A stretch of DNA of 64,000 nt from Streptomyces sp. TG1A-8 (GTDB lineage: Bacteria; Actinomycetota; Actinomycetes; Streptomycetales; Streptomycetaceae), in the NCBI RefSeq assembly GCF_030499535.1, contig NZ_JASTLB010000001.1:682001-746000 (forward strand). The letters are read 5' to 3'. Of this stretch, positions 43,513-57,213 are shown in pieces. Within the stretch, counting starts at the first letter, position 1; every line of letters begins with the position of its first letter. The notes beneath the pieces were generated by a model that saw only the letters and a program-made list of their open reading frames with translations, did no database searches and had not been told where the DNA came from. A program made the position numbers and the translations under genes.

Positions 43513-45111
43513 TCAGTCGGCGGGCAGTAGGACGCCGGGGTTGAGCAGGCCGTCGGGGTCCAGGCGGCGCTTGACGGCGCGCAGGGCCCCGATGCCCAGG
43601 GGGCCGGCCTCGCGGACGTACCAGTCGCGGTGGTCGGTGCCCACTCCGTGGTGGTGGGAGATGGTGCCGCCGGCGGCGAGGACGGCCTCGTTGGCCGCGT
43701 GCTTGGCGGGCGTCCAGTGCGCGACCGGGTCCTCGCCCCGGGCGCTGACCACGGTGAAGTACAGGGAGGCGCCGTTCTCGTACACGTGGGAGATGTGGCA
43801 CATGACCAGGGGAGGCGTACCTGCCCGGGTGAGGGTGTCGGTGAGCGCGGTGCGCACGGAGTCGTACAGCGCGGGGACGCGGGACCAGAAGGCGGCGGTC
43901 TCCAGGGTCTCGGCGAAGGCTCCCGCGTCGAGCAGGGCGTCGCGCAGGTAGGGGGCGGAGTAGCGTCCGCGGGCCCAGCGTTCGCCGGGTTCCGCGCCGA
44001 GGTGGGTCCCCCCGGCGGCGCGCAGCACGGCCGCCGCCCGCTCGCGGCGCGGACCGGTGTCCCGCCGCGCGCCCTCGTAGCCGGTGACGGCCAGGCATCC
44101 GGTGTCGCCGCGGGCCGCGGCGGCGCCGATCGCGTCGGGCTGGGCGAGGCCGACGAGCGTCTCGGTCTCGTCGGACAGCCTCAGGACGGTGGGCGGCGGT
44201 CCGTCCTGGGCGAGCCGGCGCAGCGCGGCGGCACCCTCCTCGAAGGAGGCGAACCGCCAGCCCTCGTACACGCGGTGCTCGGGCAGCGGGCGGATCCGCA
44301 CGGTGACGGAGGTGATGACGCCGAAGGCGCCCTCGGAGCCGAGGACCAGCTGGCGCAGGTCGGGGCCGGCGGCGGAGCGGGGGGCGCGGCCGGTTTCCAG
44401 GGTGCCCTCGGGGGTGGCGAGGGTGAGGCCGAGCACCATCTCGTCGAAGCGGCCGTATCCGGCCGAGGCCTGGCCGCTGGAGCGGGCGGCGGCGAAGCCG
44501 CCGACGGTGGCCCACTCGAAGGACTGCGGGAAGTGCCCGAGGGTGAACCCGCGGGCGGCGAGGAGGGCTTCGGCCTCGGGGGCGCGCAGGCCGGGCTGCA
44601 GGACGGCGGTGCGGGAGACGGGGTCCAGGTCGAGCAGGGCGTTCATGCGCCGCAGGTCGAGGGCGACGAAGTCGCGCCGCTGCGGGGCGAGGCCGCCGAC
44701 CACGGAGGTGCCGCCGCCGAAGGGCACGACGGCCAGGCCGTGCGCGGCGCAGGCGCGCAGCACGGCGAGGACGTCCTCGTGGGAGGCGGGCAGGACGACG
44801 GCCTGGGGGACGTCACCGGTGTCGCCCGCGCGGATGCGCAGCAGGTCGGGGGTGGACTTGCCGCGGGTGTGCCGGATCCGGCTCTCGGCGTCCGTGCGGA
44901 CGTGCTCCGCGCCGCCGACGGCGTCGGCGAGGGCGCGCAGCGCGGCCGGGGCGGCCGTGGTGGCGGGCGGGCGGAGGTCCGGCAGGGCGAGCGCCCCGGC
45001 GGGGCGCGGTGTGACGCCGAGCAGGTCGCGCAGCAGCGCGGTCGCCGTGTCGGGCAGGGGTGCCGCCTTCGCCGGGTCGCCCCAGCCGTTCCACAGCATG
45101 TCCATCGACAC
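43513..45111 (-). CDS. alkylglycerone-phosphate synthase-like FAD-binding oxidase
   Basis: A 532-aa FAD enzyme of the VAO/PCMH type. The FAD-binding half shows VLPASHEDVLAVLRACAAHG, VPFGGGTSVVGGL (about residues 140-152), and GFTLGHFPQSFEWATVGGFA. The C-terminal half has ISHVYENGASLYFT, the triple-His motif SHHHGVGTDHRDW (about 480-492) and DPDGLLNPG. The HHHGVG motif matches alkylglycerone-phosphate synthase, the enzyme that makes the ether bond in ether lipids by swapping an acyl for an alkyl group on dihydroxyacetone phosphate. A plain D-lactate/glycolate-type oxidase is the alternative. The GTG at 45111 has GAGGA 5 nt upstream. Neighbours are a lipid kinase and GlpD. Confidence 0.82.
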   Translation of the reverse strand: MSMDMLWNGWGDPAKAAPLPDTATALLRDLLGVTPRPAGALALPDLRPPATTAAPAALRALADAVGGAEHVRTDAESRIRHTRGKSTPDLLRIRAGDTGDVPQAVVLPASHEDVLAVLRACAAHGLAVVPFGGGTSVVGGLAPQRRDFVALDLRRMNALLDLDPVSRTAVLQPGLRAPEAEALLAARGFTLGHFPQSFEWATVGGFAAARSSGQASAGYGRFDEMVLGLTLATPEGTLETGRAPRSAAGPDLRQLVLGSEGAFGVITSVTVRIRPLPEHRVYEGWRFASFEEGAAALRRLAQDGPPPTVLRLSDETETLVGLAQPDAIGAAAARGDTGCLAVTGYEGARRDTGPRRERAAAVLRAAGGTHLGAEPGERWARGRYSAPYLRDALLDAGAFAETLETAAFWSRVPALYDSVRTALTDTLTRAGTPPLVMCHISHVYENGASLYFTVVSARGEDPVAHWTPAKHAANEAVLAAGGTISHHHGVGTDHRDWYVREAGPLGIGALRAVKRRLDPDGLLNPGVLLPAD

Positions 45112-45158
45112 GGTCGTCCTCACAGGTCGGTTCGCTCGGTGCGCGCGGTGCCGTCTTC

Positions 45159-45188
45159 CGCCCCGACTCCGGGGCGTTACACTGTGAC
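45159..45188. promoter_or_regulatory. divergent promoter/operator for FAD enzyme and TetR-GlpD
   Basis: Two inverted repeats lie in the 79-bp gap between divergent genes: CGCCCCG-ACTC-CGGGGCG (45159-45176), and GTnACA-n-TGTnAC (45176-45188). The second contains TACACT (45178-45183), a good -10 placed 7 nt before the TetR ATG, so that message is probably leaderless. A TetR dimer bound there would block both promoters (inference). Confidence 0.55.
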
Positions 45189-45190
45189 AC

Positions 45191-45790
45191 ATGGCGCCTA
45201 TTCGTCACAACCGTTCGGGCGGCGACGCCGTGCTCGACGCGGTGCGCGACTGCGTGCTGGCCGTCGGGGTCCGCCGCACCACCCTGGCCGACGTGGCCCG
45301 CCGTGCCGGCGTGTCCCGGATGACGCTGTACCGGCGCTGGCCCGATCTGCGGTCACTGGTGGGCGATCTGATGACCCGTGAGTGGATCGCCGTCGCCACC
45401 GGCGCGATGCCGCCGCGCGCGGACGGCGCGGACACGCGGACCCGGATCGTGGCGGGGCTGGTCGCGGGGGTGGAGGCGTTCCGCGCCCACCCCCTGTTCC
45501 GCAAGATCGTCGACGTCGACCCCGAGCTGCTCCTCCCCTACGTGCTCGACCGGCGCGGAGCCAGCCAGGAGGCGCTGCTCGGGCTGCTCGCCGACGCCCT
45601 GCGCGAGGGCCACGCGGACGGGTCCGTCCGGATCGCCCACGTGGAACGGCAGGCCCGCACCACGCTGCTGGCCGTGCAGTCCTTCGCGCTGTCGCTGCGC
45701 ACCATGACCGACGAGGACGACCCCGAACTCGGCGCGTCCGCCTTCCTCGGCGAGCTGCGCACCCTTCTGGAGAGGACCCTCAGCCCATGA
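45191..45790 (+). CDS. TetR-family regulator of the glycerolipid locus
   Basis: A 199-aa regulator. Residues about 12-58 form the DNA-binding domain (AVLDAVRDCVLAVGVRRTTL, then ADVARRAGVSRMTLYRRWPD). The rest is a helical effector domain (ETRTRIVAGLV-like segment, FRAHPLFRKIVDVDPELLLP, TTLLAVQSFALSLR). The ATG is only 7 nt after a -10 hexamer and has no ribosome site, which fits a leaderless message. Its stop overlaps the glpD start (ATGA), so the two are translated together. Divergence from the FAD enzyme and the palindrome between them make it the likely local repressor. Confidence 0.88.
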   Translation: MAPIRHNRSGGDAVLDAVRDCVLAVGVRRTTLADVARRAGVSRMTLYRRWPDLRSLVGDLMTREWIAVATGAMPPRADGADTRTRIVAGLVAGVEAFRAHPLFRKIVDVDPELLLPYVLDRRGASQEALLGLLADALREGHADGSVRIAHVERQARTTLLAVQSFALSLRTMTDEDDPELGASAFLGELRTLLERTLSP

Positions 45791-47379
45791 GCCCCACCAG
45801 CAGCCGGCCCGGGTCCGCCGCGGCACCGGGGTCCTCCCTCAGCGCCGGGCGGCGTGCCGGCGAACTGGCCGCGGCGGCGGACGGCACGGTGGCCGACGTC
45901 CTGGTCGTCGGCCTCGGCGCGACCGGGGCGGGCGCCGCCCTGGACGCCGCCGCCCGCGGGCTCGACGTGGTCGCCGTCGACGCCCACGACCTCGCCTTCG
46001 GCACGTCCCGCTGGAGTTCCAAGCTCATCCACGGCGGACTGCGCTACCTGGCGTCCGCGCAGTTCGACGTCGCGCACGAGAGCGCGGCCGAACGCGGCGT
46101 CCTGATGACCCGCACCGCCCCGCACCTGGTGGCCGCCCAGCCCTTCGTCCTGCCGCTGACCCCCCTGGTGTCGCGCGCCCAGGCCTCCCTGGCCTGGGCC
46201 GGCTTCCGGGCCGGGGACATGCTGCGGCTGGCCGCGCGGACCCCGCGCCGGGTCCTGCCGGCGCCCCGCCGGCTCACCGCGGCGCAGGCCCGGCACCTGG
46301 CGCCCGCGGTGCGCGCCGCCGGCCTGCGCGGCGGACTGCTGTCCTGGGACGGACGGGTGAGCGACGACGCCCGGCTGGTCACCGCGCTGGCGCGGACGGC
46401 CGCCGCCCACGGCGCCCGCGTGCTCACCCGGGTGCGGGTGCTGGAACTGACCGGCACGGGCGCCCGGATCCGCGACGAGCTCACCGGCGAGGAGGGCGAG
46501 ATCCGGGCCCGCGCCGTGATCAACGCCACCGGCGTGTGGGCCGGCGGGCTCGTCGACGGCGTCCGCATCCGCCCGTCGCGCGGCACGCACCTCGTCCTGC
46601 GCTCGGAGCGGCTCGGCTCCCTCCCGGCGGGCCTGCACATCCCGGTCCCGGGCGAGACCAACCGCTTCGTCCTCGTCCTGCCCCAGGGGGACGGCCGGGT
46701 CTACGTCGGTCTCACCGACGAGCCCGTCGAGGACGGGGTACCGGACGTGCCGGAGGCCCCCGAGAGCGACGTCGGCTTCCTCCTCGACGTCCTCGGACCG
46801 GTGCTGGACGCGCCGGTGCGGCGGGAGGAGGTCGCCGGCGCCTTCGCCGGACTGCGGCCCCTGCTGGACACCTCCGGGCACGAGGGACCCGGCGCCGCCC
46901 GCACCTGCGACATCTCCCGCCGGCACGCGGTGCTCACCTCGTCCGAGGGCGTGGTCACCGTGGTCGGCGGCAAGCTGACCACCTACCGGCGGATGGCCGA
47001 GGACGCCGTCGACGCCGCCGCCGCGGCGCGCGGCCTGTCCGCGGGCCCCTCCCCCACCGCCGCCCTGCCCCTGGTCGGCGCCGCCGCCCCCGCACGGCTG
47101 CGCGCCCTGCCCGCGCCCCGCCGGCTGGTCCACCGCTACGGCACCGAGGCCCCCGCGGTCCTCGCCCTCGCGGAGCGGGATCCGGCCCTGGCCGAGCCGG
47201 CCCTGCCGGGGCACCCGGTCACCCGTGCCGAACTCGTGTGGGCCGCCCGGCACGAGGGCGCCCTGGACGTATCGGACCTCCTGGACCGGCGCACCCGCAT
47301 CGGCCTCGTCCCGGACGACCGCGCCGGGGCGCTACCTGCCGCCCGGGAGGCGCTGGCACGGGCCGCGGCGCACTCCTGA
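45787..47379 (+). CDS. glpD: FAD-dependent glycerol-3-phosphate dehydrogenase
   Basis: A 530-aa flavoenzyme that oxidises sn-glycerol-3-phosphate to dihydroxyacetone phosphate at the membrane. Motifs: DVLVVGLGATGAGAALDAAA (dinucleotide fold, about residues 37-56), GTSRWSSKLIHGGLRYL (about 75-92, the GlpD signature), VINATGVWAGGL, SRGTHLVL, DGRVYVGLTDEP, and VVTVVGGKLTTYRRMAEDAV. The C-terminal cap domain is somewhat short (VHRYGTEAP to the end). The product, DHAP, is the backbone precursor for the divergent alkylglycerone-phosphate-synthase-like enzyme. It is coupled to the TetR gene by a 4-bp overlap. Confidence 0.92.
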   Translation: MSPTSSRPGSAAAPGSSLSAGRRAGELAAAADGTVADVLVVGLGATGAGAALDAAARGLDVVAVDAHDLAFGTSRWSSKLIHGGLRYLASAQFDVAHESAAERGVLMTRTAPHLVAAQPFVLPLTPLVSRAQASLAWAGFRAGDMLRLAARTPRRVLPAPRRLTAAQARHLAPAVRAAGLRGGLLSWDGRVSDDARLVTALARTAAAHGARVLTRVRVLELTGTGARIRDELTGEEGEIRARAVINATGVWAGGLVDGVRIRPSRGTHLVLRSERLGSLPAGLHIPVPGETNRFVLVLPQGDGRVYVGLTDEPVEDGVPDVPEAPESDVGFLLDVLGPVLDAPVRREEVAGAFAGLRPLLDTSGHEGPGAARTCDISRRHAVLTSSEGVVTVVGGKLTTYRRMAEDAVDAAAAARGLSAGPSPTAALPLVGAAAPARLRALPAPRRLVHRYGTEAPAVLALAERDPALAEPALPGHPVTRAELVWAARHEGALDVSDLLDRRTRIGLVPDDRAGALPAAREALARAAAHS

Positions 47380-47624: not shown

Positions 47625-50057
47625 TCAGTCGGCGAGGTGCCGCTGGATCCAGTCGGCGGCGGTGCGGCGGAACAGGCGCCGGTTGTCCGCGCGGCGGAAG
47701 TCGTGCCCCTCCTCGCGCAGCAGCAGGAGTTCCGCCTCCAGCCCGCGCTCCCGGGCCGCCCGGACGAACTGCTCCGACTCCCCCGGCGGCACGTTGGTGT
47801 CGTGCTCGCCGTGCACGGTCAGGACGGGCACGCGCAGGGCGTCGATCCGGCTCATCGGTGACAGGTCCCGCAGCAGGTCGCGGTCGCGCTCCGGATGCCC
47901 GTACTTGTGGGCGGCCGACTCGGCGATCCACGGCTCGGTACCGGCGAAGAACGTGTGCAGGTCCGACATCCCGCACACCGCCACCCCCGTACGGAACAGC
48001 TCCGGGTGCCAGACCAGCGAGGCCATCACCAGGTAGCCGCCGTACGAGCGGCCCATCACCGCCAGCCGCCGGGGGTCGGCCATGCCCTCCACCACCACGT
48101 GGGCCGCGCAGGCGGCCACGTCCTCGATCGCGGCGAAGCGGCCCTCGCCCAGGTCGGCGTCGACGAAGGAGCGGCCGTACCCCGACGAGCCGCGGATGTC
48201 GGGCGCGAAGACGTCCAGGCCGCGGCCCAGCAGCTCGTGGTAGAGCGGTTCCAGGACGGGGCGTTCCTGTTCCTCGGGACCGCCGTGCAGGTGCAGGACG
48301 CACGGCGCCGGCTCACCCGGCGAACGGCCCGGCGCCCGGTAGTACCAGCCGCCCAGGGCGAGTCCGTCGCGGGCGAGGGGGCGCAGCGGTACCGGCCGCA
48401 CCGGCGGCCGGCCGTCCGGCACCTGCTCCTCGTCGCGCGAGGACCAGGGGGTGCGCAGCGCCGCCCCCTGGGGCAGCCACCACACGCCGGGCCGCCGCCG
48501 CGAACCCGACAGGGCCACCACGGGGCCGTCGGGGCCGAAGCCGGGGGCGGCGCGGACGACGACCTCGTGGGGCAGCGCCACGGCGCGGGAGGGGCCGAGC
48601 AGGGGGAGGTCCGGCGGGAGGCCGGGCGGCTCGTGGGCGTCCGCGGCGCCCACCGGGGCGGCCGGGCGCGTCCCGGTGCCGTCCGGGACGGCCGCCGGGA
48701 CGGCCGCACGCGCCGCGGGGACGGGCGGTCCCTGCCCCGGGGCGCCGGCGGCGGCACCGGGACGCCGCGTCCCGTCCGCCCCGTGCCGTTCCGGGGCCGC
48801 CGGCGCCAGGGCCGCGACCTCCAGCTCGCTGACGCCCCGCACGTTCCAGCACAGCACGGCGCTGTGCGCCTCGCGGTCGAGGGCGAGCAGTTCCAGGTCG
48901 CAGTCGGGTCGGGCGGCGGCGACCGTCCGGTCCAGCTGCTGCCCCCGCGGGCCGAGCCGGACCGCGAGCAGGGCGGCGTACTCGCGGCCACTGTCGCTGC
49001 GCAGCCACAGCGTGCGGCCGTCCGGTGAGAAGCCGCCGATCCACGGGTCCCCGTCGGCGACCCGGACCGCGCAGGTGACGGTGCGGTCGGCACCGCGCAC
49101 CACGAGCGCCTCGCGGTTGCCGCGGGGCCCGCGGCGCAGCAGGGCCAGCCGGCCGTCCCGGCTCACGTCGCACACGCGCAGGGTCGGCGCCCCGGGTTCG
49201 CTCGCCAGCAGGACCGGCGCCGCCTCGCCCTCCGGGTCGACCAGGTAGGCCGTCAGGGTCCTCGGGCCGGGCTGTTCGCGCACCGCGCCGGGGTGGGGCG
49301 GGTGGACGCCGGCCGCGGGGGCGTCGAGGTGGACGGGGTGGGGCGCCGTGGTGAGGGCCGTGCCGCCGAGCAGCACCGCGCGGCCGGCGCGGCCGGTCCA
49401 GTCGCGGGTGCGCACGGGCACCTGCGGATCGGCCGACGCGGTCGGCGCGTCGGGTCCGTCCCGGGTGAGGACGGCGGGGCCGGGCTCCCTGACGGTCACC
49501 GCGAGGGCCGAGCCGTCGTGCGTCCAGCAGCCCAGGTGGGCGGAGGTGCCGGGCTCGCCCCCGGCCAGCAGGCGCCGTCCGGTGCCGTCGGGGCGGACGC
49601 ACAGGACCCGGGTCAGCTCCCCGCCGCCGGGGGCGGTGGTGTAGGCGATCCACCGGCCGTCCGGCGACCAGGACACCTCGGTCACCGGCTCCGGATCGGC
49701 GTCCAGGAGCCGGACCTGCCCGCCGTCCACGGGCCCGGCCCACAGCTGGGGCACTCCGGTGCGGTCGCAGATGAAGGCGACGTGCCGGCCGCCGGGGTCC
49801 ACGGAGGGGTACCAGCAGCCGTGGGCGACCAGGGGTTGCGGGACGTCGTAGGGGGCGGCGGTGTCCGCCAGGTGCACCGGCTCCGGCGCCGCGCGGATCG
49901 CGGCCGCGCCGCCCCCGTCCGGCCCCGTGGCCAGGTGCACCGGACCGAACGCGTGCAGCGCCTCGCCGCCTCGCGCGATCACCCCGGAGTCCGCGCGCGC
50001 CTGCCGGGGCCGGCGCGTGTCCACGTGCCCGTGGTGCGCCGGCTCGGTCACCTCCAT
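47625..50057 (-). CDS. S9 prolyl-oligopeptidase family serine peptidase
   Basis: An 810-aa two-domain peptidase. The N-terminal part is a beta-propeller with TolB/DPP-like repeats (HVAFICDRTGVPQLW, EVSWSPDGRWIAYT, LRVCDVSRDGRLALL, IGGFSPDGRTLWL). The C-terminal alpha/beta-hydrolase domain holds the triad: Ser671 in GRSYGG, Asp753 in HGEHDTNVP and His785 in EEGHDF. A Pro/Ala-rich insert of about 60 residues, likely disordered, splits the propeller from the catalytic domain. No signal peptide is seen, so it is probably cytoplasmic. The ATG at 50057 is the first good start; a GTG lies 9 codons earlier. The 263 bp up to the amidotransferase stop stay open in this frame but are low-complexity Gly/Ala and have no better start. 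It is the last gene of a leftward operon. Confidence 0.88.
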   Translation of the reverse strand: MEVTEPAHHGHVDTRRPRQARADSGVIARGGEALHAFGPVHLATGPDGGGAAAIRAAPEPVHLADTAAPYDVPQPLVAHGCWYPSVDPGGRHVAFICDRTGVPQLWAGPVDGGQVRLLDADPEPVTEVSWSPDGRWIAYTTAPGGGELTRVLCVRPDGTGRRLLAGGEPGTSAHLGCWTHDGSALAVTVREPGPAVLTRDGPDAPTASADPQVPVRTRDWTGRAGRAVLLGGTALTTAPHPVHLDAPAAGVHPPHPGAVREQPGPRTLTAYLVDPEGEAAPVLLASEPGAPTLRVCDVSRDGRLALLRRGPRGNREALVVRGADRTVTCAVRVADGDPWIGGFSPDGRTLWLRSDSGREYAALLAVRLGPRGQQLDRTVAAARPDCDLELLALDREAHSAVLCWNVRGVSELEVAALAPAAPERHGADGTRRPGAAAGAPGQGPPVPAARAAVPAAVPDGTGTRPAAPVGAADAHEPPGLPPDLPLLGPSRAVALPHEVVVRAAPGFGPDGPVVALSGSRRRPGVWWLPQGAALRTPWSSRDEEQVPDGRPPVRPVPLRPLARDGLALGGWYYRAPGRSPGEPAPCVLHLHGGPEEQERPVLEPLYHELLGRGLDVFAPDIRGSSGYGRSFVDADLGEGRFAAIEDVAACAAHVVVEGMADPRRLAVMGRSYGGYLVMASLVWHPELFRTGVAVCGMSDLHTFFAGTEPWIAESAAHKYGHPERDRDLLRDLSPMSRIDALRVPVLTVHGEHDTNVPPGESEQFVRAARERGLEAELLLLREEGHDFRRADNRRLFRRTAADWIQRHLAD

Positions 50058-50320
50058 GCCGCCGCGCGCCGGTCCGGGCGCCACCGGAGCACCGTACGCC
50101 CGGCCGGGCGCCCCGTCACCGGTGCGGCCGGGGGCGGGCGCGTCTTCCCGGCCGCGCCCGGCCCGCGCCGCCCCGGCGTGCGCCCGGCCGGCCGCAGGGG
50201 CACCGTCCGCGCCCCGGCCGCCGGCGCCCGCCCCCGCGCCGCCCGGGGCTGGGGCCGGACCGCCGGCACCCCCGGCGGTCCCGTTCTCCCCGGCGTGCCC
50301 GGCTCCCGCGTTCGCCCCGC

Positions 50321-52105
50321 TCAGCGGATGCCGTGGGTCTGGAGCCATGTCTCCAGCAGCGCGACCTGCCACAGTGTGTTCGCTCCTCGCCTGGTCCGGT
50401 GCTCGTTGGGTGCCGCGAGCAGCTCGGCGACGTACTCCTGGCGGAAGACGCCGCGCTCCTTCGCCTCCGGGGAGGTGAGGGTCTCGCGGACCCGCTGCAG
50501 GACCGGGCCCGCCATGTGCTTGATCGCGGGGACCGGGAAGTAGCCCTTGGGCCGGTCGACGACCTCCCGGGGCAGGACCTTGCGTCCGGCCGCCTTCAGG
50601 ATGCCCTTGCCGCCGTCGGCGAGCTTCAGTTCGGGCGGGCAGGCCGCGGCCAGCTCGACCAGTTCGTGGTCGAGGAAGGGCACCCGGGCCTCCAGGCCCC
50701 AGTCCATCGTCATGTTGTCGACGCGCTTGACGGGGTCGTCGACCATCATCACGTGCGTGTCCAGCCGCAGGTCGGCGTCCAGGGCCGTCTCGGCCCCCTC
50801 GGCCGCCATGTGGGCGCGCACGAACTCGGCGGAGGCGTCCTCGGCGGCCAGCAGGCCGGGTTCGAGGATGCGGGCGAGATCGGCGTGGGACCGGTCGAAG
50901 TAGGTGTCGACGTACGCGTCGGCGGCGCTCTGCCGGGGCACGCCCGCCATCGCCGGGTACCAGTGGTAGCCGGCGAACACCTCGTCGGCGCCCTGGCCGC
51001 TCTGCACGACCTTGACCTCCTTGGCGACCTGCTCGGACAGCAGGTGGAAGGCCACCACGTCGTGGCTCATCATGGGCTCGCTCATGGCGCGCACCGCTGC
51101 CTCCAGAGCTCCGGAGACCCGGTCGGAGGGGACCATGAGCTGGTGGTGGCGGGTGTCGAAGTGCCGGGCCACGAGGTCGGAGTAGTGGAACTCGTCGCCC
51201 TCCTCGCCGCCCTCGGACTCGAAGCCGACGCTGAAGGTCGCGAGGTCGTCCTGCCCCTGCTCGGCCAGCAGGGCCACGATGAGGCTGGAGTCCAGCCCGC
51301 CGGAGAGCAGCACGCCGACGGGCACGTCGGCGACCATGCGGCGGCGCACGGCGGTGCGCAGCGCGTCCAGTACGGCGTCCGTCCAGTCGTCCGCGCCCAG
51401 TGCCGCGTACTCGGCGCGGCGGGTGTACGAGGGCTGCCAGTAGCAGTGGTCGCGCCGGGTGCCGTCGGGCTCGACGGTCCGCACGGTGGCCGGGGGCAGC
51501 TTGCGCACGCCGTTCAGGACGGTGTGGGGCGCGGCGACGGTCGCGTGCCAGCTGAAGTACTGGTGCAGGGCCACCGGGTCGAGCGAGGTGTCGACGCCGC
51601 CGCCCGCGAGCAGCGCGGGCAGGGAGGAGGCGAACCGGAGCCGGTCGGGCGTCTCGGCCAGGTACAGCGGCTTGATGCCGAGCCGGTCGCGGGCCAGCAC
51701 GACCCGCCCGGTGTCCTGCTCGACGATCACGAAGGCGAACATGCCGTAGAAGCGGTCGACGCAGTCGGCGCCCCACTGCGCGTAGGCCTTGAGCACCACC
51801 TCGGTGTCGGAGTCCGAGAAGAAGTGGTGGCCCAGGCCGCGCAGTTCGTCGCGCAGTTCCCGGTAGTTGTAGATGCAGCCGTTGAAGACGCCGGCGATCC
51901 GGGCGCGGGGGTCGGACATGGGCTGGGCGCCGGTCTCCGACAAGTCGATGATCTTCAGCCGACGGTGGCCGAGGGCGACCGCTCCCTGGGACCAGACGCC
52001 CCGGCCGTCGGGGCCCCGGGGGGCGAGCCGGTCGGTCATCCGTTCCACGGCCGCCAGGTCGGGGCGTTCGCCGTCGAACCGTATCTCTCCGCTGAGTCCG
52101 CACAT
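50321..52105 (-). CDS. asparagine synthase-like amidotransferase (N-acetylglutaminylglutamine-amide type)
   Basis: A 594-aa class II glutamine amidotransferase. The N-terminal nucleophile Cys2 (MCGLSGEI) and the glutaminase motifs PRGPDGRG, GHRRLKIIDLS and FNGCIYNYRELR are intact. The synthetase half has the ATP pyrophosphatase loop VLLSGGLDSSLI (about residues 262-273) and SGQGADEVFAGYHWYP. It uses glutamine nitrogen to amidate an ATP-activated carboxylate. The FNGCIYNY and WYP-type sequence resembles the AsnO/'trio' amidotransferases that make N-acetylglutaminylglutamine amide rather than asparagine synthetase (from recollection of the family). Its ATG shares a base with the stop of the 48-aa gene upstream (TGATG). 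Confidence 0.85.
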   Translation of the reverse strand: MCGLSGEIRFDGERPDLAAVERMTDRLAPRGPDGRGVWSQGAVALGHRRLKIIDLSETGAQPMSDPRARIAGVFNGCIYNYRELRDELRGLGHHFFSDSDTEVVLKAYAQWGADCVDRFYGMFAFVIVEQDTGRVVLARDRLGIKPLYLAETPDRLRFASSLPALLAGGGVDTSLDPVALHQYFSWHATVAAPHTVLNGVRKLPPATVRTVEPDGTRRDHCYWQPSYTRRAEYAALGADDWTDAVLDALRTAVRRRMVADVPVGVLLSGGLDSSLIVALLAEQGQDDLATFSVGFESEGGEEGDEFHYSDLVARHFDTRHHQLMVPSDRVSGALEAAVRAMSEPMMSHDVVAFHLLSEQVAKEVKVVQSGQGADEVFAGYHWYPAMAGVPRQSAADAYVDTYFDRSHADLARILEPGLLAAEDASAEFVRAHMAAEGAETALDADLRLDTHVMMVDDPVKRVDNMTMDWGLEARVPFLDHELVELAAACPPELKLADGGKGILKAAGRKVLPREVVDRPKGYFPVPAIKHMAGPVLQRVRETLTSPEAKERGVFRQEYVAELLAAPNEHRTRRGANTLWQVALLETWLQTHGIR

Positions 52106-52251
52106 CAGAGGCGCCCCTTCTCCCGGTCCGCGGTGCGTCCCGGACCCGCCGGGCGGCTCCGGGCCGGGCGTCGCGGCCCGGGGGCGCCGGCCGGGACGGC
52201 GGACGCCGGGTGCGGGTGGTCGGAGGTGGCGGGGTGCTGCCTACTGGACAT
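52105..52251 (-). CDS. 48-residue peptide coupled to the amidotransferase
   Basis: A short ORF starting at the ATG at 52251, with a strong GAAGGAGAG purine run upstream, and ending in TGATG overlapping the amidotransferase start. The peptide begins MSSRQHPATSDHPHP, has an Ala/Pro/Gly-rich middle with many Arg, and ends DREKGRL. It has no Cys, no membrane segment and no signal peptide. The ribosome site and stop-start overlap argue that it is translated. It could be a substrate peptide, a small partner protein, or just a leader that delivers ribosomes to the next gene. I recognise no family. Confidence 0.55.
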   Translation of the reverse strand: MSSRQHPATSDHPHPASAVPAGAPGPRRPARSRPAGPGRTADREKGRL

Positions 52252-52325
52252 GACGGTCTGACTCTCCTTCGTCACTCGGGGGTGCCGGCACGGTGGGGGG
52301 GTGCGGCGGGCCGGGAGCGCGGTGC

Positions 52326-53519
52326 TCAGGCGCTCGGGCTCGGGGCGGCCGGCCTGCGGACGGGACCGCGCACACGTCCGGCGCCCACCGGCGCGGTCCG
52401 GTGCGGGGGGCGGGCGGCCGCGCGCCGCGTTCCGCGGTCGCCGCGGGTCTCGGCCACCATCAGGTCGACGCTGGCGAGGAGGTCCTCGGCCTGGGCCGTC
52501 CGGCGCAGGCGGTGGGCGGCGCTGCCGGCCTCCAGGGCCTCCTCCAGGAGCGTGCTCACGGTGTCCCAGTCGCCGGAGGCCTCCAGCGCGGGGCGCAGCC
52601 GGGCCAGCATGCCGCGCAGCACCACGGGGGCGGGGGCCGCGCGGTGCGCGACCGGGTCGACCAGGGGGCCTTCGAGACCGGAGCGCGCGGCCCGCCAGGC
52701 GGCGGCGCGCAGCCGGTCGTGGCGGCCGTCGCACAGCGGGCCGTCCGCGCGTTCCAGGCGCTCGCAGGCGTCGCGCACCAGCGCGCGGAACAGCCCGGCG
52801 ACCAGTACCACGGTCTCCGCGCGCGGACAGGCGTCGCAGATGCGCAGCTCCAGCGTGCCCTGGTGGGCCGAGGGCCGCACGTCGTGGTAGACCATGCCGG
52901 CGTCGGTGATGACACCGGAGTCGATCAGCTCCGCGAGGGCCGCGTCGTAGGCGGCGGCGTCCGGGTGGCAGCCGGCCGGGCCGGCGGTGGGCCAGCGCTG
53001 CCAGAGCATGGTCCGCCAACTGGCGTAGCCGGTGTCCGAGCCGAGCCAGAACGGGGAGCTGGCGGAGAGGGCCAGCAGCGGCGGCAGCCACGGCGAGACC
53101 AGGCACATGGCGCGGACGGCGGTGTCGCGGTCGGGCACGTCGACGTGCACCTGCGCGCTGCAGATGAGCTGTTCGTCGGCGACCAGGCGGTAGTCGTCGA
53201 CCATGCGCTGGTAGCGCGGGTCGGCGGTGACGTCCCGCGGGGTGACGCGGGCCAGCGGCACGGTGCCGGCCGCCACGACGGCGAGGCCGAGGTCGGCGGC
53301 GGCCGTGTCCAGGGCGCGCCGGGCCGAGGACAGGTCGGCGTACAGACCGTCCAGCGTGGCGTGCACGCCGCTGTTGCGCTCCACGACCGAGCGCTGCAGT
53401 TCACCGGTGAATCCGGGTCTGCCGAGCCGGCCGAGCAGTTCCCCGGCGCGTGGGACGAGCCGCCCGCTCTCCACGTCCAGTACGTGAAACTCTTCTTCTG
53501 CCCCAAGGCGCGGCGTCAC
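52326..53519 (-). CDS. carboxylate-amine ligase, GCS2/YbdK family
   Basis: A 397-aa ATP-dependent ligase of the glutamate-cysteine ligase 2 fold, which joins an amino acid gamma- or alpha-carboxylate to an amine. Motifs: LGAEEEFHVLD at residues 5-15 (the family's acidic metal site), ADEQLICSAQVHVDVPDRD, LSASSPFWLGSDTGYASWRT, and the tail segment DVRPSAHQGTLELRICD. An Arg/Pro-rich C-terminal tail of about 35 residues looks disordered. The GTG at 53519 has GGGGAGAA about 5 nt upstream. It is the first gene of the leftward operon with the 48-aa peptide, the amidotransferase and the S9 peptidase. The true substrate is unknown; E. coli YbdK has only weak glutamate-cysteine ligase activity. Confidence 0.88.
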   Translation of the reverse strand: MTPRLGAEEEFHVLDVESGRLVPRAGELLGRLGRPGFTGELQRSVVERNSGVHATLDGLYADLSSARRALDTAAADLGLAVVAAGTVPLARVTPRDVTADPRYQRMVDDYRLVADEQLICSAQVHVDVPDRDTAVRAMCLVSPWLPPLLALSASSPFWLGSDTGYASWRTMLWQRWPTAGPAGCHPDAAAYDAALAELIDSGVITDAGMVYHDVRPSAHQGTLELRICDACPRAETVVLVAGLFRALVRDACERLERADGPLCDGRHDRLRAAAWRAARSGLEGPLVDPVAHRAAPAPVVLRGMLARLRPALEASGDWDTVSTLLEEALEAGSAAHRLRRTAQAEDLLASVDLMVAETRGDRGTRRAAARPPHRTAPVGAGRVRGPVRRPAAPSPSA

Positions 53520-53942
53520 GGCTTCTCCCCTGTGCGTAGACAACAGCCGCCGACGCGCGGCGCCCGCTGGGCGCCGCCGGCCGGCCGACGTCGCCCGAGT
53601 TCCCCGATCAGCCGTTGACAAGCATGTTCACGCGCCGTATGTGACCCCTCACTCTCATGTGAGCGGGTGCGGTCGCCGGGGAGTCACCGGCCTGCGGCCC
53701 ACCCCGGCGCCCACGGCCGCGACCAGCGGCGCCGCGCACGCGGTGAAGACCAGGCCCGCCTCGCGCACCCCCAGCGCCACCGCCAGCGCGCCCACGGCGA
53801 CGAGCGGCGAAGACGCCCGCCGCGGCCGGGTATCCCGGGCGGCGGGCGTGCCGGTGCGTCCCGGCGCCGCCGTTGGCCACACCCCATCATGGGCACGCCG
53901 CCCCCACTGCCGGAGGACGGCGCTCCCCGCGCGGGCCGGACT
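53520..53942. other. 423-bp intergenic region with candidate promoter
   Basis: Lies between the ligase start and the end of the LAxTG protein gene, both on the minus strand. A perfect TTGACA (53615-53620) is followed after 17 bp by TATGTG (53638-53643), on the plus strand, then by CTCAC-tctcat-GTGAG (53648-53663). No gene follows on that strand nearby, so the promoter may be chance. A 75-codon minus-strand frame at 53655-53882 has a hydrophobic middle but no ribosome site and is not called. Confidence 0.35.
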
Positions 53943-56040: not shown

Positions 56041-57213
56041 TCACGACCGGCCGGGCGGAGCCTGGACGCGGGGGCCGGCGAGGTCCGCCACGCACGCCAG
56101 GGCATCGGCCCTGAACAGCTCCCGCGCGCGGGCGGTGCGGCGCCTGCGCTCCGGGCCGGACGGCCGCAGCCGGTCGAGCGCGGCCGGCAGGTCCGCGGCG
56201 CGCGCGGCGAACTCCGACAGTCCCGCCGCGGCCATCCGCCGCACGCCCTCCGCCCCGTGCCCGGGCAGCGGGCGGTACCCCACCACCGGCAGCCGTGCGG
56301 CGAGCGCCTGGACGGCGGTCTGCCCGGCGGCGTTGTCGACCAGGGCGTACGAGGCCCCCATCAGCGCGGGCATGTCGGCCACCCAGCCCAGGGCCACGGC
56401 TCCGGGAAGTCCGGCGAGCCGGCCGAGGAGGCGCTCGTTGCGCCCGCACAGCAGCACGGGCAGGAAGCCGGCCGACGCCAGCAGCCGGGCCGTGCCGGCG
56501 GCGTGCGACAGGGCTCCCCAGGCGCCGGCGGAGACCAGGACGGGCGGGCGGCCCGGAGCGCGCCGGTCGAACCACTCGCGCCGGCGGGCCGACGGGGCAC
56601 CCGGCGGGGCGAAGAACCCGGGGGCGACGACCGGCCCCGTCGTGCGCACCCGGGACTCGACCGCACGCCGGACCTCGCGCGCCGCCTCGTCGGTCAGGCA
56701 CAGGTAGTGGTCGTTGCCCGGGTGCAGCCAGTGCCGGTGCACGGCGAAGTCCAGCAGGAACACGGCGCTCGGGACGTCGAGCCCGCCCCGGCCGCGCAGG
56801 TGGCCGGTCAGCTGGGCCGCGAGGTGGAAGACGGGCACCACCACGTCGGCGCCGAACCGGTCCACCCGTTCGCGCAGCCGGTCACCGGCCAGCCGGGCCA
56901 GCGGGACGCCGCTGGGGCGGGCTCCGGGCCCCGGACGCATGAACGTCCGGTACAGGCCCGCGTACGCCCAGGGAGCGTGCCGCACCGACGCCTGGTAGCA
57001 CTGGCGCAGGGCCGCCCCCAGGCCGCGGGGCAGCAGCTGGAGGACGTCCACGACGCGGGCTTCGTGGCCCTGGACCCGGGCGCGCCGGGCGAGTTCGCCC
57101 GCCACCGTGTCGTGTCCGGCGCCCATGCCCGCGCTGACGACGAGGATCCGCCGGGGCCCGCCGCGCGGGAGCGCGGGCCGGCCGGGTCCGGGGGAGCAGT
57201 CACGCACGTCCAC
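56041..57213 (-). CDS. MGDG synthase-like glycosyltransferase
   Basis: A 390-aa GT-B glycosyltransferase related to monogalactosyldiacylglycerol/diglucosyldiacylglycerol synthases (GT28-like). The N-terminal half has the family start RRILVVSAGMGAGHDTVAGE (about residues 21-40) and VVDVLQLLPRGLG, followed by a membrane-facing segment YQASVRHAPWAYAGLYRTFM. The C-terminal half holds the sugar-nucleotide site: VLVSAGAWGALSHAAGTARL, LLCGRNERLLGRL, GWVADMPALMGASYALVDNA, then GQTAVQALAARLPVVGYRPL. The GTG at 57213 is used. The acceptor could be diacylglycerol or a polyprenol-type lipid; sequence alone does not decide. A short-chain dehydrogenase diverges 200 bp away. Confidence 0.82.
   Translation of the reverse strand: MDVRDCSPGPGRPALPRGGPRRILVVSAGMGAGHDTVAGELARRARVQGHEARVVDVLQLLPRGLGAALRQCYQASVRHAPWAYAGLYRTFMRPGPGARPSGVPLARLAGDRLRERVDRFGADVVVPVFHLAAQLTGHLRGRGGLDVPSAVFLLDFAVHRHWLHPGNDHYLCLTDEAAREVRRAVESRVRTTGPVVAPGFFAPPGAPSARRREWFDRRAPGRPPVLVSAGAWGALSHAAGTARLLASAGFLPVLLCGRNERLLGRLAGLPGAVALGWVADMPALMGASYALVDNAAGQTAVQALAARLPVVGYRPLPGHGAEGVRRMAAAGLSEFAARAADLPAALDRLRPSGPERRRRTARARELFRADALACVADLAGPRVQAPPGRS

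Follow-up and report, generated by a model that had tools for sequence, protein, structure and literature searches.

A glutamine-amide peptide operon without Ngg: a YbdK-type ligase, AsnO and an S9 peptidase as the probable Streptomyces form of a second NAGGN-type system in actinobacteria

The stretch of 64,000 nucleotides analysed here (hereafter the window; Streptomyces sp. TG1A-8, contig NZ_JASTLB010000001.1, positions 682,001 to 746,000 of the forward strand) carries genes for a YbdK-type carboxylate-amine ligase, an AsnO amidotransferase and an S9 family peptidase. We propose that this locus represents the Streptomyces version of another operon of the N-acetylglutaminylglutamine amide (NAGGN) type, which is independent of Ngg and widespread in actinobacteria. 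According to this reading, to which we assign a probability of roughly 60%, YbdK would make a peptide, AsnO would amidate it and the S9 peptidase would recycle the product, likely an osmoprotectant. An initial annotation of this DNA had named an operon of ligase, amidotransferase and S9 peptidase, and all three genes are indeed present on the minus strand, YbdK being upstream and followed, after 220 bases, by AsnO and then S9. Together with a small open reading frame (ORF) they are arranged as follows:

52326..53519, minus strand: YbdK-type carboxylate-amine ligase (GCS2 family), 397 aa, GTG start
52105..52251, minus strand: ORF of 48 codons, its TGA overlapping the ATG of AsnO (TGATG)
50321..52105, minus strand: AsnO amidotransferase, 594 aa, ATG start followed by Cys2 (MCG)
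47625..50348, minus strand: S9 family peptidase with an acylaminoacyl-peptidase or S9 carboxypeptidase-like fold, start uncertain

In a profile search AsnO passed the equivalog cut-off of TIGR03104 with 975.9 bits (cut-off 570.1) and also scored above the cut-off of the asparagine synthetase family TIGR01536 (430.7 bits, cut-off 267.1). The two asparagine synthetases of the window's genome score in the reversed order, with 476 and 468 bits for TIGR01536 vs 349 and 328 bits for TIGR03104. AsnO of Sinorhizobium medicae, which has an Ngg of 969 bits as neighbour, is 60% identical to the window AsnO. As judged by these profile scores, the window AsnO is an orthologue of the NAGGN amidotransferase. 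We further compared AsnO from loci with Ngg, from Streptomyces loci and from loci in which YbdK is fused to a circularly permuted (CP) ATP-grasp domain. A total of 225 columns reach 90% conservation or more in every one of the three groups; 217 of them are common to all three, and 92 of these 217 differ from the asparagine synthetases of the window's genome. Because of the shared columns and the 60% identity to the Ngg-adjoining AsnO of S. medicae, the substrate of AsnO is probably the same at its C-terminal end across all three groups. AsnO has been described as amidating N-acetylglutaminylglutamine, and a Pseudomonas aeruginosa asnO mutant grew more slowly at high osmolarity (excerpt of PMC8070244). 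In Frankia alni a glutamine amidotransferase, which may sit in a fusion-type locus, was up 2.20-fold under polyethylene glycol (excerpt of PMC5768760).

AsnO exceeded the cut-off in 50 of 246 genomes of the genus and in 46 of 396 genomes of a phylum sample. The survey of its neighbourhood comprised 46 of the 49 other AsnO-positive genus genomes (all but G242, G017 and G152, two of which have the locus near a contig start) as well as 34 of the 41 AsnO-positive phylum genomes from outside the genus (all but G474, G393, G371, G621, G428, G614 and G581). To these 80 loci were added the best 80 of 586 from a further scan, a set that leans to close relatives, as well as four plasmid loci and the window, giving 165 loci, 159 distinct ones and finally 146 with at least 1600 bases before and at least 2600 bases after AsnO. 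Ngg alone accompanies AsnO in 41 of the 146, YbdK and S9 in 53, the YbdK-CP-ATP-grasp fusion and S9 in 24, and S9 alone in 21; rarer layouts have only CP ATP-grasp (3), the fusion without S9 (2), only YbdK (1) or none of these genes (1). All 41 Ngg loci are devoid of YbdK, CP ATP-grasp and S9, and 104 of the 146 carry one or more of these three without Ngg, an exclusion with a Fisher value of 1.3e-35 that is inflated by relatedness. Both the Ngg-type and the Ngg-less types are present within Micromonospora, where M. tulbaghiae (L225) is of the Ngg-type.

Within the genus, S9 follows AsnO in 45 of 47 distinct loci by threshold (one of the two exceptions is a locus truncated where its contig ends), YbdK precedes it in 32, and the whole trio is found by threshold in 31. 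A YbdK orthologue of 65-78% identity occurs in 31 of the 46 AsnO-positive genomes, always at the AsnO locus. The remaining 15 have YbdK copies of at most 41% identity, one genome having none at all, so that a distant orthologue does not account for the YbdK-less Streptomyces. None of the 60 AsnO-negative genomes tested contains the orthologue, the best long match being 45% identical and one fragment of 32 residues 59%; in many genomes these searches, like those for Ngg, scored part of the first-look candidates. The initial annotation had tied its pathway to co-occurrence of the genes in other genomes, and YbdK, AsnO and S9 do co-occur widely, far above chance. A conserved fourth gene was not found: beyond the clusters of YbdK/ATP-grasp/AsnO and S9, the widest one, obtained with a crude ORF filter, reaches 15 of 105 loci.

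It had also been stated that both known partners of AsnO are replaced here, and this holds for the whole genome of the window (7.66 Mb, 100% complete as a computed figure). It contains no Ngg (TIGR03103) over the cut-off, with a best score of 27.5 of 569 bits, and no match to the M42 peptidase (TIGR03106), and has the GCS2 ligase and the S9 peptidase instead. In the 79 genomes of Ngg-less layouts Ngg was likewise never over the cut-off. The best scores among them, 156-179 bits in Actinoplanes, Nucisporomicrobium and Jidongwangia, cover profile positions 241-527 only.

The window YbdK passes the cut-off of TIGR02050 (262.9 bits, cut-off 176.4), matches PF04107 and is slightly below the cut-off of NF010041 (329.9 bits, cut-off 332). 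In an alignment of 78 rows, stand-alone and fused, 84 positions are at least 97% invariant, and the window YbdK keeps the invariant columns including GxEEE. We regard it as a separate protein that corresponds to the N-terminal half of the YbdK-CP-ATP-grasp fusion found in other actinobacteria. The fusion protein has ~840-950 aa (one ORF has 1068, start uncertain), with YbdK as its N-terminal and CP ATP-grasp as its C-terminal half, and its gene is followed by AsnO and then usually by S9. The window shares this order, YbdK being upstream of AsnO and S9, with a YbdK chain that is separate from any CP ATP-grasp. Fusion was established by ORF for ten loci, by Pfam for two and by tblastn for the remainder, and is found in Frankia, Pseudofrankia, Pseudonocardia, Actinoplanes, part of Micromonospora, Microlunatus, Amnibacterium and Actinacidiphila. 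In two loci (L142 and L184) the fusion partner matches PF14403 at 334-412 bits. All three Pfam domains are present in 120 of 120 fusion homologues among the matches listed, and 1703 relatives, some perhaps unfused, were counted among 8000 candidates scored; NCBI names for many of the fusion proteins give domains only. A Pseudofrankia locus and two Frankia loci (L185, L186 and L187) have a stand-alone GNAT gene beside AsnO or S9.

A few loci depart from these arrangements. In three members of one family (L134, L136 and L138; f18) AsnO adjoins a CP ATP-grasp gene, a further kind of ligase partner, without S9 or Ngg, and L136 has a weak YbdK match (29% identity) farther upstream. In L147, which belongs to a different lineage, a distant YbdK (32% identical) stands right before AsnO at -1100 to -33, with no S9 match nearby.

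In an AsnO tree of 64 rows, Nonomuraea and the Streptomycetaceae form one clade (98/95), in which Actinacidiphila retains the fusion and the rest have a stand-alone YbdK or none; in the Nonomuraea locus (L230) the frame of the stand-alone YbdK is uninterrupted to residue 376 of the matched stretch. The Ngg-type rows group with the CP-only rows and L147 (87/96) and form no exclusive group. With outgroup branches of very great length, the placement of the root is uncertain. Apart from Actinacidiphila, the Streptomycetaceae loci surveyed have no CP ATP-grasp domain, and several lineages are also without YbdK. Our reading of the tree is that the Streptomyces form would be a reduced version of the fusion system that arose by domain loss. 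CP ATP-grasp encoded away from the locus is not a general feature, as 34 of the 46 AsnO-positive Streptomyces besides the window's are without any match; 10 have a full copy elsewhere, 1 a weak one over the cut-off and 1 a match under the cut-off, and the same search matched 4 of 4 fusion-type genomes run alongside. The ratio of nonsynonymous to synonymous substitution rates (dN/dS) indicates purifying selection on AsnO (0.06-0.21 in ten pairs, of which five come from loci lacking YbdK) and on YbdK (0.19-0.26 in five pairs).

The S9 peptidase scores 144.7 bits against PF00326, over the cut-off, and its Ser/Asp/His catalytic motif columns are conserved. By sequence and predicted fold, its nearest solved relatives are acylaminoacyl peptidases and S9 carboxypeptidases (5l8s, 8wt1 and relatives). 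Candidate starts are the ATG at 50348, which overlaps the end of the AsnO gene, and the ATG at 50057. In the model from the latter the first 51 residues have a predicted local distance difference test (pLDDT) score under 50, and ~75 N-terminal residues of the modelled ORF fall outside the aligned fold.

In the proposed pathway the GCS2-type ligase, and not Ngg, would activate the carboxylate of glutamate or glutamine with ATP and join it to the amine of a second amino acid. AsnO would act on a short peptide that is blocked at its N-terminus and has glutamine as its last residue; the ammonia released by hydrolysis of glutamine would be passed to the C-terminal carboxylate once this has been activated by ATP, a step that would yield a peptide amide. 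The S9 peptidase may then cleave surplus product, as has been proposed for the M42 peptidase in the proteobacterial trio. The product is expected to have a C-terminal glutamine amide, and its N-terminal half may be N-acetylglutaminyl, as in NAGGN, or gamma-glutamyl. A likely role in osmoprotection is suggested by the orthology of AsnO and by the one published protein-abundance result in Frankia. GCS2 enzymes usually make gamma-glutamyl bonds. We tentatively go a step further, at slightly less than even odds, and suggest that actinobacteria possess a second, independently assembled route to glutamine-amide peptides. In this route a GCS2 ligase, ancestrally fused to CP ATP-grasp, would feed AsnO, and an S9 peptidase of the acylaminoacyl type would recycle the product, which would be a new compatible solute such as gamma-glutamyl-glutamine amide and not NAGGN. 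The ligase slot would be swappable from lineage to lineage (Ngg, the fusion, YbdK alone, CP ATP-grasp alone or none) round a constant AsnO.

Several observations weigh against the pathway proposed for the window. CP ATP-grasp is absent at its locus, and its genome has no match to PF14403 (CP_ATPgrasp_2), so that the Streptomyces form would be incomplete if CP ATP-grasp makes the peptide bond in the full system. YbdK itself is missing from 20 of the 73 Streptomycetaceae loci whose flanks are long enough (Actinacidiphila not counted); these 20 keep AsnO and S9. Since AsnO is under purifying selection also without YbdK, the ligase cannot be indispensable for AsnO's substrate in those lineages. 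In the non-Ngg loci AsnO is partnered by S9 in 98 of 105 vs 80 of 105 for YbdK, and the firmer pairing with S9 would fit a role of the peptidase beyond recycling. Moreover, the S9 fold is tied between acylaminoacyl peptidase and S9 carboxypeptidase, and a carboxypeptidase would presumably require a free C-terminus. Among the 225 AsnO columns, eight differ between the groups, mostly conservatively, and column 570 is L in the Ngg-type and R in both other groups. With two of the Frankiaceae GNATs as queries, no such GNAT was found beside other loci, Streptomyces included. FRAAL1888 of F. alni is a putative AsnO of a fusion-type locus, and the literature searched yielded neither a metabolite nor an enzyme assay for loci without Ngg.

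The gamma-glutamyl bonds normally formed by GCS2 enzymes and the lack, in the search with two queries, of such a GNAT at the Streptomyces loci make it unlikely that NAGGN itself is the product through a non-orthologous replacement of Ngg, with YbdK and/or CP ATP-grasp forming Ac-Gln-Gln and a GNAT encoded elsewhere supplying the acetyl group. Nevertheless, AsnO is almost the same in the Ngg-type and the Ngg-less types, a stand-alone GNAT adjoins AsnO or S9 in the three Frankiaceae loci, and Micromonospora, which holds both types, includes with M. provocatoris, nearest to the Ngg-type M. tulbaghiae, a producer of NAGGN (excerpt of PMC8146288). The Streptomyces locus could also be a decaying remnant, in which the half that forms the peptide is disappearing and AsnO works on a fall-back substrate, e.g., a simple N-acyl-glutamine. 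The absence of the CP ATP-grasp domain, then of YbdK in some loci and once of S9 (L109), would agree with such a decay, as would the restriction of AsnO to just 50 of the 246 genus genomes. We consider it rather improbable because dN/dS is low for both AsnO and YbdK within the genus, the invariant columns are intact and 31 of the 47 genus loci still have the whole trio by threshold. There is very little to be said for AsnO as a spare asparagine synthetase with unrelated neighbours. AsnO does score over the cut-off of TIGR01536, but a plain asparagine synthetase was rejected on the scores of 431 vs 976 bits (TIGR01536 vs TIGR03104), the order being reversed in the two dedicated paralogues of the genome, and the neighbours are co-inherited.

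The initial annotation had further placed a 48-aa peptide between ligase and amidotransferase and considered its modification by the operon enzymes. The ORF is there, with AAGGAG upstream and the TGATG coupling to AsnO, and these signals are what a ribosomal precursor modified by ligase, amidotransferase and peptidase would have in its favour. Conserved sequence was not found. A tblastn search (E 1e-3), a weak test at such length, detected no relative in 80 other loci. TGATG marks the AsnO start in 22 of 76 distinct Streptomycetaceae loci and in 0 of 27 fusion-type loci; one of the 41 Ngg-type loci has TG before the AsnO start, and a coupled small ORF is present in none of the 27 fusion-type or 41 Ngg-type loci. 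Where ORFs were examined, a small one ends at the AsnO start in 15 of 18 loci and is lacking in 3, with sequences and lengths that are mostly dissimilar between loci. The three that can be aligned (L100, L103 and L151) change in a near-neutral manner (dN 0.12-0.21 vs dS 0.19-0.24, few sites). The precursor was therefore rejected, and we give its modification by the operon enzymes almost no credence; the ORF is probably a lineage-restricted coupling or leader ORF and not a conserved peptide.

Upstream of the operon a further feature was noted:

53595..53623, minus strand: promoter-like footprint GCTTG-N14-GGGAAC-TCGG, 75 nt upstream of the YbdK start

The pattern G[CA]TTG-N12-15-GGG[AC]AC, picked by eye and post hoc from the very sequences then scored, precedes YbdK in 12 of the 49 loci that have both YbdK and S9 (shuffles: mean 0.3, maximum 3). 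Its carriers (L068, L069, L070, L074, L075, L101, L110, the window, L148, L152, L154 and L155) are mostly near relatives of the window. The footprint looks like an alternative-sigma promoter. Stress sigma-factor promoters have the consensus GNNT-N14-16-GGGTAC/T, which occurs in 1 of 49 loci, the same as in shuffles; the footprint does not fit it, and a stress promoter of this kind was rejected. By the 3' end of the operon (43513-47379) lie a GlcD-like FAD-linked oxidase gene and a divergent glycerol-3-phosphate dehydrogenase-like gene, both below family cut-offs, and the short ORF between them has by eye the look of a TetR-type regulator. On the other side (56041-57213, minus strand) is a glycosyltransferase gene akin to diglucosyl diacylglycerol synthase, far under the family cut-offs. 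In Streptomyces fungicidicus (L231, 3854-4294) an OsmC family gene lies directly upstream of the operon and in the opposite orientation.

AsnO genes are annotated for N-acetylglutaminylglutamine amidotransferase also in Ngg-less surroundings, as in S. fungicidicus, yet many actinobacteria contain AsnO without Ngg, and their product may be a different one. If it were identified, a new compatible solute or another route to one already known would come to light, and the GCS2-CP-ATP-grasp fusion family would gain a function. Many soil bacteria may make a protectant related to NAGGN. M. provocatoris, the closest relative of which is M. tulbaghiae, makes NAGGN and was reported with asnO and ngg (excerpt of PMC8146288). 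The Micromonospora osmolyte ABAGG was dropped as a candidate product, since it is an anthranilate-glycine-glycerol ester (excerpt of PMC10513789). In Casuarina Frankia strains asnO is >60% identical to others, the 'ngg' is <15% identical to known Ngg, and a dipeptidase gene lies between the two (excerpt of PMC5563000). The Ngg-less arrangement may account for this operon, and in our reading its 'ngg' may be the GNAT of a fusion-type locus. No description of the GCS2-CP-ATP-grasp-AsnO-S9 arrangement was found among the literature matches listed; an earlier mention is possible.

With the NAGGN operon asnO-ngg-peptidase of Sinorhizobium meliloti and P. aeruginosa (PA3459-PA3461) the window shares the AsnO orthologue, a peptidase gene and a gene for an ATP-dependent carboxylate-amine ligase, but has a GCS2 ligase and an S9 peptidase where the former has Ngg (GNAT and ATP-grasp) and an M42 peptidase. 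The window YbdK belongs to the same sequence family as E. coli YbdK (1r8g) and the TIGR02050 ligases, with GxEEE and other invariant residues kept, and differs from other YbdK proteins in forming a sub-branch linked to AsnO; in the Streptomyces genomes searched, no other long YbdK match exceeds 45% identity. The S9 peptidase is alike in fold and motif columns to the S9 acylaminoacyl peptidases and carboxypeptidases (5l8s, 8wt1), with its N-terminal ~75 residues outside. In the full system of other actinobacteria, the fusion partner is of the same family as the CP type 2 ATP-grasp proteins (PF14403/PF04174), from which it differs by its fusion to GCS2 and its place before AsnO.

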